Positions 2,595 to 32,302 of a stretch of DNA of 64,000 nt are shown in pieces. Origin of the DNA: Candidatus Nitrosopumilus sp. Its GTDB lineage: Archaea > Thermoproteota > Nitrososphaeria > Nitrososphaerales > Nitrosopumilaceae. The translations under genes were made by a program, and so were the position numbers. How positions within the stretch are numbered: position 1 is the stretch's first letter; each line of letters opens with the position of its first letter. The stretch is from assembly GCA_029255365.1 (NCBI GenBank), contig JAPFQF010000052.1:1-64000 (forward strand), read 5' to 3'. Below the pieces are notes generated by a model. The model ran no database searches and had not been told where the DNA came from. It saw only the letters and a list, made by a program, of their open reading frames with translations.

Positions 2595-3626
2595 TTAAGC
2601 ATTTGATTGACAATCTGCCAATTTCTGAATAATCTTTGATGCTACTTTGGCACCGTCCGTATTGGTTGGATTTCTCTTTGCTTCGAGTTTTTCTAAAATT
2701 AATTTTCCTAGTCTGCCGATGTCTTCAAAGACAAACCCCTGCCTTTTTGCATTATCTTCTTGCTCAAAATGTCCTTTGATGGGTATGAAAATTGCCGGTG
2801 TCCCGTAAGCGTTAGCCTCATCTATGGTTGATTTTCCAGCCAATGATATAACCAAATCTGCTGCAAAAATCAGCTCATGTAGATTATCCACAAATCCCAA
2901 ATTTTTTACATTTTCAAATTTTTTGTTTATTGCCGGACCTGACACTACGACAACCTCCAGATCTTGATTGATTTTTAAAATAGCTTTCAATGCTTTCTCA
3001 ATTAGAAATAACCCCGCATCTGTACCTCCTACTGATATGACTACGGTGTTTTTTTCAAAAGAAAATTTCTTTCTCAATTTATCTCTTGCAAGGTCTGTCT
3101 GTCTTACTATGGGGCCGACTCTTTTGATGTTGCCTTGCCCCTCTCCATCTTCAGGAACGATTACAATGTCGCATTTTTTGACAATTTCCTGCATTGACTT
3201 GTTCATCTTTTTTTCAATGAATGATGCTATTCCTTTAGTGAAATGAGTTTCTAGCACATCCGTAATCAGAACTGTTGGAATCTTCATCCCTTGTGCAACA
3301 GTCAGTGACGCAAAATCCTCATCACTGATTACCAAATTCGGTTTGTCTTTTTGAATGATTTTCTGTGAAATATTTTTACAATCTCTGTAGTATTGATAGT
3401 AATTCCACAACCACTTTGCTGTATTCTTTAATGCCCCGTTCTCAATTATGAATGTCGGTGGATTGTATGCGTCTTGTACGTTGTAGTCTAATTTTTTTAG
3501 AATTTTTGCAGCGCCACTCCCAGTGATAAAATTTGTTGAGATGCTTTCAAAATTATTTACAATTGCAATATCTCGAGTCACATGACCTAGTCCAATTGGG
3601 CTGGAAAAAAAATTGCAAACATTCAT
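2595..3626 (-). CDS. GT28/MurG-like glycosyltransferase family protein
   Basis: N-terminal SSPIGLGHVTRDIAI, C-terminal LAGKSTIDEANAYGTPAIFIP. Confidence 0.75.
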   Translation of the reverse strand: MNVCNFFSSPIGLGHVTRDIAIVNNFESISTNFITGSGAAKILKKLDYNVQDAYNPPTFIIENGALKNTAKWLWNYYQYYRDCKNISQKIIQKDKPNLVISDEDFASLTVAQGMKIPTVLITDVLETHFTKGIASFIEKKMNKSMQEIVKKCDIVIVPEDGEGQGNIKRVGPIVRQTDLARDKLRKKFSFEKNTVVISVGGTDAGLFLIEKALKAILKINQDLEVVVVSGPAINKKFENVKNLGFVDNLHELIFAADLVISLAGKSTIDEANAYGTPAIFIPIKGHFEQEDNAKRQGFVFEDIGRLGKLILEKLEAKRNPTNTDGAKVASKIIQKLADCQSNA

Positions 3627-30578: not shown

Positions 30579-31370
30579 TCAAAAACTACCCAGTGTCTTC
30601 TGTTTCTTTTCTTCCCATATTAGCTCCCGCATACCCAACTGCATCCTCAAAGAGTTTGCAGTGGCAGGACCGAATCCTTCAAAGTGATTGTTTGCCATCA
30701 CCATTGCCGTTGGGACGTCTTCGATTTCTTGGAGTCTTTGTGCCCAATTGGCAATTAATTTTCCTTTGTTTTTTGAAACTTTGCCAAAATCTGAATCTGG
30801 AATGGACCTGTCTCCAATCAATCTGACATAAAGATAGTCTGCTGTAATCGGCATTGGGTTGTTCACTCCTACCACATCGTTCCAAACAAGGCAGTGCTTG
30901 TTTTGTTTTAGATATGTGATTGCATCTTGTGAAAACCATGACTCATGTCTTCCTTCAATTGGATATAGAAAATCATCTGGCAGCAAATCAAAGAGTTCTC
31001 CTAGTCTTGGTTTTGCCTCCTCAAATGACAATGATGGAGGCAGCTGCAAAACAAGTGCCGAAACCTTTTCATGAATTGGAGATAATGATGCCAAAAACGA
31101 AAAGACTTCAGAATTTACTCTGTCTAATCTTTTTTCATGTGTAATTGCAGATGGAAATTTTGCTGTAAATCTAAAATGTCGCGGAGTGTCCTCATTCCAT
31201 CGTCGCACGATTTCCTGTGCTGGAATTCTGTAAAATGTAGAATTTATCTCTGTGATTTCAAAAATCTGAGAATAATATTTGAGCCATTGGGAATTTTTTA
31301 GATTTCTAGGGTAAAATGAACCTGACCATCCTTGATAGCACCATCCTGTGCAGCCAACTTTGATATTCAT
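30579..31370 (-). CDS. DUF72 family protein
   Basis: VGCTGWCYQGWSGSFYP, EINSTFYRIP, NNHFEGFGPATANSLR. Confidence 0.9.
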   Translation of the reverse strand: MNIKVGCTGWCYQGWSGSFYPRNLKNSQWLKYYSQIFEITEINSTFYRIPAQEIVRRWNEDTPRHFRFTAKFPSAITHEKRLDRVNSEVFSFLASLSPIHEKVSALVLQLPPSLSFEEAKPRLGELFDLLPDDFLYPIEGRHESWFSQDAITYLKQNKHCLVWNDVVGVNNPMPITADYLYVRLIGDRSIPDSDFGKVSKNKGKLIANWAQRLQEIEDVPTAMVMANNHFEGFGPATANSLRMQLGMRELIWEEKKQKTLGSF

Positions 31371-31549
31371 AGTCTTTGCTGTAATTTTAAAATTTGAATT
31401 CTATTATACTTTGATAATTTTCTGGATTACGCAATAAATTCATCAGTTCGTATGACATTGTAAATTATTTTAAAATCAAATGGGAAACGAGGTGTGGTGG
31501 AAAACTAGACGAATTTTAGATACTTCTATCTCTTTCGTGTTTTCCTTTT

Positions 31550-31625
31550 CCTACCTGTCCGCTTACTCAAAGTTTCTCATCTGAATCTCAGCAGGTATGA
31601 TAGCCCTCGTCATACACTCTAAGTA
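31550..31625. ncRNA. Weak candidate structured RNA
   Basis: ACCTG...CAGGT enclosing CTGA-ATC-TCAG, then GTATGATAGCCCTCGTCATAC hairpin; intergenic; strand undetermined. Confidence 0.2.
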
Positions 31626-31741
31626 AAAATAAAATTTAAAGGGTTCTAGTATAATTCTTAAAATTCATTTAAATTTATCAAAAAATACGCACAAATTTAC
31701 ATGATCTTGCTAATCTACTTTATTATTCAACAACGCCTATA

Positions 31742-31865
31742 GACACTGAAGACAGAGTTTGGATATTCAAGCACAATATTCTATTGTCGTGTTACGTGCC
31801 AACGCATACTTGCTTGGCATTGTAAAGGATACCCGCAGAAAACTCTAGTCTTCTATTTTATTATT
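31742..31865 (+). ncRNA. Candidate multi-helix structured ncRNA with T-rich terminator
   Basis: Closing helix GAAGAC-A-GAGTTT(31748-31760)/AAACTC-TA-GTCTTC(31840-31853), hairpin ACAAT/ATTGT (31773-31787), hairpin TGCCAA-c-GCA/TGC-TTGGCA (31797-31819), followed by TATTTTATTATTTTTTT; TATA-like TTTATTAT about 25 nt upstream. Confidence 0.5.
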
Positions 31866-32239
31866 TTTTTAGCTTTTGCAAATACTGCTGACCACTGACT
31901 CCATGCAAGTCTGCCTGTATGTGTGTTTTGTTTTGACGGATGGTAAGATGTTAGAATTTCAAATCCGTCATAGGAAAATAATTTGTTGTGTCCAAACTTT
32001 TCCGGTTTTACTTTGTACAATTTACAAGTGGCATCATATGCAATTTTTCCAAGACACAAAATTGTTGTAATGTTTGCCAGAATTTCTTTTTCGTGCTCCA
32101 AATAATTGAAACAAGTCTCCATCTCTTCTCTTGTTGGTTTGTTATGCGGCGGTGCACATCTGACTGCTGCAGTAATATATGCATTGTGTAAAATCAATCC
32201 ATCATTTACATCTTGACTGGTTGGGATGGACGCAATCAA
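31853..32239 (-). pseudogene. Family-5 (UDGb-like) uracil-DNA glycosylase, 5'-truncated remnant
   Basis: DGLILHNAYITAAVRCAPPHNKPTREE and SYHPSKQNTHTGRL match the C-terminal half; N-terminal catalytic/GxxPG half missing and not present upstream. Confidence 0.65.
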
Positions 32240-32302
32240 CCATTGATTTTTCTTTAAACTATTCCATTAAAGAATCACTATGCATTGAATCTATTTTGCA
32301 TC

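Follow-up and report, generated by a model that had tools for sequence, protein, structure and literature searches.

The DNA analysed here (the window, 64,000 nucleotides of a Candidatus Nitrosopumilus contig) almost certainly encodes a stand-alone RNA gene of ~105 nt. The Nitrosopumilaceae are among the most abundant marine archaea and oxidize much of the sea's ammonia, and we found no small regulatory RNA described for them in the open-licence literature. The RNA family appears to be new, and its general kind, the stand-alone archaeal small RNA, is known; as for its role, a protein-bound, trans-acting regulator is favoured over a non-regulatory RNP component.

Fold and covariation of the RNA

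The first-pass annotation, made from the sequence alone, had placed a candidate structured RNA in a gap of ~480 bp without credible ORFs. An ORF scan bears this out: the 482 bp from 31371 to 31852 hold no credible ORF and are flanked by a DUF72 gene (30579-31370, minus strand) and a uracil-DNA-glycosylase-like ORF (31853-32239, minus strand), both Pfam-supported. The RNA copy in the window is on the plus strand and is thus convergent with the adjacent glycosylase-like ORF. A protein-coding reading of 31748-31853 was rejected because there is no credible ORF and because relatives differ in length by numbers of bases not divisible by three; the P4 arm of one relative (L002) contains an 11-codon ORF, which was also set aside, since frame changes in other copies break the reading. 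The features of the locus are as follows.

31712-31727, plus strand: promoter element AATCTACTTTATTATT, BRE/TATA-like, with box TTTATTATT at 31719-31727; assigned by spacing and motif match
31748-31853, plus strand: structured RNA, class A, ~106 nt with predicted ends; fold z score -4.37, relatives by DNA search and covariance models, covariation
31748-31760, plus strand: closing helix P1, 5' strand, pairs with 31840-31853
31840-31853, plus strand: closing helix P1, 3' strand; covariation as for the 5' strand
31773-31787, plus strand: hairpin HP1 (ACAAT 31773-31777 / ATTGT 31783-31787); in class A an alternative to P2
31785-31788, plus strand: helix P2, 5' strand TGTC, pairs with GATA 31828-31831; covaries in classes A and B
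31792-31795, plus strand: helix P3, 5' strand TTAC, pairs with GTAA 31822-31825; A-U and G-C types kept
31797-31819, plus strand: apical hairpin P4, loop with conserved TAC; strong class B covariation
31822-31831, plus strand: conserved 3' side of the arm, GTAAAGGATA, near-invariant in both classes
31856-31871, plus strand: T-rich tract, presumed terminator; T runs follow copies, and the tract shares positions with the final codons of the ORF on the other strand

The closing helix proposed in the annotation is present, with GAAGAC-A-GAGTTT (31748-31760) and AAACTC-TA-GTCTTC (31840-31853) forming 13 bp with one bulged base. Both of the hairpins that it was said to enclose can also be found: TGCCAA (31797-31802) pairs with TTGGCA (31814-31819) around GCA/TGC exactly where it had been placed, and the ACAAT/ATTGT pairing exists as well, but in class A the latter is mutually exclusive with the covarying helix P2. 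The stretch from 31742 to 31865 folds at -36.0 kcal/mol, compared with -21.9 +/- 3.2 kcal/mol in 200 shuffles, none of which was as good (z -4.37), and its reverse strand has a less stable fold (z -3.2).

Relatives were collected from 200 Nitrosopumilaceae genomes by a plain DNA search that assumed no structure. This yielded full-length matches in five same-genus genomes (E 7e-35 to 6e-23) and partial matches in others, including, according to named contigs, other Nitrosopumilus species. In an alignment of 14 sequences gathered by DNA similarity alone (A1; MAFFT, not structure-fitted), P1, the core CTATTGTCGTGTTAC...GTAAAGGAYAA and the upstream CTTTATTATT are kept and the flanks have diverged. 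Paired cells make up 88.7% of A1 versus at most 50% in slid versions, and 17 cells are changed on both sides versus 6.8 +/- 2.3 in shuffles, a count that none of 500 shuffles reached; at one P1 pair, eight sequences have A-U and four have U-A.

A search with a covariance model built from the A1 relatives (R1) returned further copies, several per genome in some cases, with nine matches in one genome and seven in another. The covariance models reveal two classes of one family, A, to which the window copy belongs, and B, in which P1 is GAAAGCTGAC/GTCAGCTTTC, a hairpin (ACAATATCCTATTGT) stands directly inside P1, and the long arm is the same as in class A. A class B model (R2) and a model built from class B alone (R3) were also made, and R3 still recovers the class A window copy (49.3 bits, E 1.1e-6).

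Pairing is also well supported within class B. A set of 27 sequences gathered via R1, a selection that favours R1's own helices although HP1 is absent from R1, pairs in 93.8% of its cells and shows 78 both-side changes versus 28.6 +/- 4.6 in shuffles (0/500). A larger class B alignment, of 56 sequences drawn from several genera, was fitted to the model and hence leans towards it; in it 24 of 33 pairs are changed on both sides (182 cells versus 55 +/- 7; 0/500), and P4 has 97% of its cells paired and changes on both sides at 7/7 pairs. Across the two classes, all 10 of the 10 P1 pairs have changes on both sides. Helix covariation among relatives, which the first-pass annotation had suggested looking for, is thus found in three alignments, each with 0 of 500 shuffles at the observed level, where the shuffle controls ignore the relatedness of the sequences and are not probabilities. 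These compensatory changes support the predicted closing helix and long arm.

The inner part of the class A fold offers competing pairings. HP1 and P2 cannot coexist there, because ATTGT shares bases with the P2 helix (31785-31788/31828-31831): the class A segment TTGTC closes the ACAAT/ATTGT hairpin and also makes P2 with GGAUA. P2 is formable, with 4-5 of 5 pairs, in most tested copies, including diverged ones with a weak hairpin, and in class B the two elements are separate and coexist, with HP1 conserved. In the minimum-energy fold of some class A copies, that of the window included, a third partner, the 5' TATTC, pairs with GGAUA, a segment for which as many as three partners compete in class A (UAUUC/UAUCC on the 5' side, UAUCC in the HP1 loop, and UUGUC). 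GGATA and its mutually exclusive partners occupy 31762-31766, 31777-31782, 31784-31788, and 31827-31831 of the window. The third pairing may reflect a conformational switch or merely noise of the energy model. A pseudoknot between the HP1 loop and GGAUA was rejected as a general feature, being restricted to part of class A and without covariation in class B.

Promoter, neighbours and distribution

A TATA-like box ahead of the RNA, as the annotation had it, is indeed there: TTTATTATT at 31719-31727 lies 29 nt before 31748. In 49 of 61 distinct copies a TATA-like box begins 28-30 nt upstream of the RNA, and a perfect 9/9 box match was found for 40 of the 61 versus 49 of 3000 random stretches. 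The exact GATCTRCTTTWTWWTT occurs once per genome in three of the four genomes checked, preceding the RNA; the remaining matches have one mismatch each and occur no more often than those of a reversed control pattern. The promoter motif thus appears to be nearly private to the RNA family. It was not found in the upstream regions of the tRNA genes in the window, and a general RNA-gene promoter was rejected on that ground.

The T-rich tract reported after the helix is present at 31856-31871 on the plus strand, but its T-richness has two possible causes, since the glycosylase ORF on the opposite strand has its final codons there. Across the family, 46% of copies have a T run of at least 5 in the next 25 nt, versus 10% of the background, and T-richness follows copies in other gene contexts too. 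Downstream of the RNA, 51 copies have a convergent gene and 50 a same-strand gene, and the neighbours are varied (DUF72, glycosylase, histidine-kinase-like, Lrp/AsnC-type, DUF6659, and others). The lack of orientation bias, the varied neighbours and the RNA's own promoter together argue for a stand-alone gene and not a leader.

The R2 model matches 96 of 250 Nitrosopumilaceae genomes, in six genera. With R3, 81 of 300 genomes of the class were matched, in 6 of 69 genera, all of them Nitrosopumilaceae; the other 63 sampled genera of the class gave no R3 match, and 200 genomes across the phylum gave no match outside Nitrosopumilaceae. Named contigs with the RNA are mostly from Nitrosopumilus MAGs. 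Copies number from 1 to about 9 per genome and are divergent. Even with permissive filters the RNA is missing from several near-complete same-genus genomes, two of which are single-contig, a distribution expected of an accessory regulator. The exact RNA pattern occurs in no viral contig searched, and viral carriage was rejected on that ground. The RNA core was also seen at 3221-3275 of a contig labelled Saprospiraceae bacterium (L140), probably an archaeal contig misbinned into a bacterial MAG. The genomes with nine and seven R1 matches (G221 and G196; loci L061-L075, L200, and L201) carry divergent copies beside unrelated genes, and these expansions could reveal paralogue specialisation.

Relation to known RNAs and possible role

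A search of Rfam 15 gave no family at gathering score for the RNA, the only hits in the window being tRNAs. With relaxed thresholds, the best hits in the RNA stretch are to unrelated families at E values of at least 1.6, and the sole hit up to E 1 among six related loci is at an unrelated place. By inspection, neither class has conserved C/D or H/ACA boxes, in line with the first reading of the locus as neither canonical type. An archaeal C/D guide RNA was rejected for want of a conserved C (RUGAUGA) and D (CUGA) pair near the ends in both classes, and an H/ACA guide RNA because the ANA box is not conserved 3' of the lower stem, P1 (tails include UAUUUU, CAUUUC, UAAAUU, AAAUUU, and UUGAUU). 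No tandem G-A K-turn was seen in the arm by inspection alone. The original proposal of an unannotated, stand-alone structured RNA is therefore supported by covariation, fixed promoter spacing and the lack of an Rfam match. The open-licence literature on Nitrosopumilus and thaumarchaeal small RNAs does not name the RNA; a description in a subscription journal, for example among ocean small-RNA metatranscriptome surveys, is possible.

As a working analogy, the RNA comes closest to sRNA154 of Methanosarcina mazei (PMC5867862), likewise stand-alone, intergenic, stably structured and conserved in one lineage, with loops proposed to contact mRNAs. The likeness would be one of mode of action and not of membership: sRNA154 belongs to another archaeal phylum and has experimentally shown targets, and its sequence was compared only via the Rfam search. 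The Tan1 ncRNA of marine group II Euryarchaeota (PMC5069720) is similarly unexplained, structured and lineage-conserved in marine archaea, but it is a 229-nt, highly transcribed euryarchaeal RNA, whereas the window RNA is ~105 nt, from Nitrosopumilaceae, and known from sequence. Covariation, the type of evidence used here, also underlies a set of 104 candidate structured-RNA motifs, among which putative trans-acting ones have no consistent downstream gene (PMC2864571). Those motifs that have Rfam entries were covered by our Rfam search and none matched; the text of that study does not mention Cenarchaeum or marine archaea.

We lean, with modest confidence, towards a protein-bound, trans-acting regulatory small RNA, on the strength of the covariation, the fixed promoter spacing, the near-private motif, the lack of orientation bias and the divergent multiple copies. 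Sequence comparison shows a conserved promoter at fixed distance ahead of P1, which joins both ends of the RNA; inside P1 are the small hairpin HP1 and the P2-P3-P4 arm, whose internal loop is conserved and whose apical loop contains UAC, and a T-rich tract comes after. Transcription would start at P1 and terminate at that tract. The conserved arm may be recognised by a protein or a tertiary contact, and target RNAs may pair with the junction and the HP1 loop, which are less conserved and vary among paralogues, so that the copies in one genome could serve different or overlapping targets. Against this reading, the RNA is mostly base-paired and its best-conserved unpaired positions are in the internal and apical loops, a pattern that fits protein binding no less well than antisense pairing.

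That same pattern, together with the highly structured fold and paired ends, would fit the RNA component of an RNP particular to this lineage, one that serves in structure, processing or guiding and does not regulate mRNAs, with paralogues tuned to different substrates. We regard this as a possible though rather unlikely reading: the absence from near-complete genomes of the genus argues against a housekeeping RNP, and the boxes of H/ACA and C/D RNAs are not conserved. Somewhat more speculatively, and with some doubt on our part, this undescribed multi-copy Nitrosopumilaceae family with its nearly private promoter may constitute a lineage-specific regulatory or RNP system in which class A switches folds on target or protein binding.

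The other explanations are much less probable. Rfam may be poor in Nitrosopumilales sequences, so that a diverged member of a known family could be missed by its models; the weak and unrelated hits of the relaxed searches, in the window and at the six related loci, make this very unlikely. A cis-acting leader or 3' element of an adjacent gene might be suspected from class B, which sits 30-34 bp upstream of a same-strand DUF72 gene in many genomes, but the even split in orientation of the downstream genes and their varied kinds count against a riboswitch or cis leader, and with a promoter of its own at fixed spacing and a window copy convergent with its neighbour we consider a cis element highly improbable. 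Hardly credible, finally, is a small MITE-like mobile DNA element whose terminal inverted repeat mimics P1. Several copies per genome and such a repeat would be expected of it, yet the copies are diverged, the arms of P1 change together, the internal helices covary, a promoter of fixed spacing precedes the copies, and viral contigs lack the exact pattern.

For the trans-acting regulator that we favour, as for any other role, a covariation-supported, multi-copy family with a recognisable promoter provides a concrete model with more than 100 located copies. This model can be overlaid on existing transcriptomes, and RNA-level regulation in Nitrosopumilaceae becomes directly testable.

Other features of the locus

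The glycosylase ORF in the region 31853-32300 (minus strand) is shortened to 128 aa and matches positions 44-127 only of the UDG profile, compared with 218-238 aa for the protein in relatives; either a gene truncation or an assembly fault would account for this. At the other end of the gap, 31371-31480 is without the class B copy that is found ~34 bp upstream of DUF72 in relatives (e.g., L084 and L085), and the region upstream of DUF72 is correspondingly shorter than in relatives with that copy.

A second conserved structured RNA candidate adjoins the first, at ~31478-31614 on the minus strand (~137 nt, z -3.8), with a closing helix ACGAGG/CCTCGT around two arms and a TATA-like TTTAAATTTTA upstream. 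It has no Rfam match and is present in 26 of 60 same-genus genomes, and its consensus, a three-way junction, includes nine pairs with changes on both sides. In some genomes, class B, this second RNA and class A occur together between DUF72 and the glycosylase gene.
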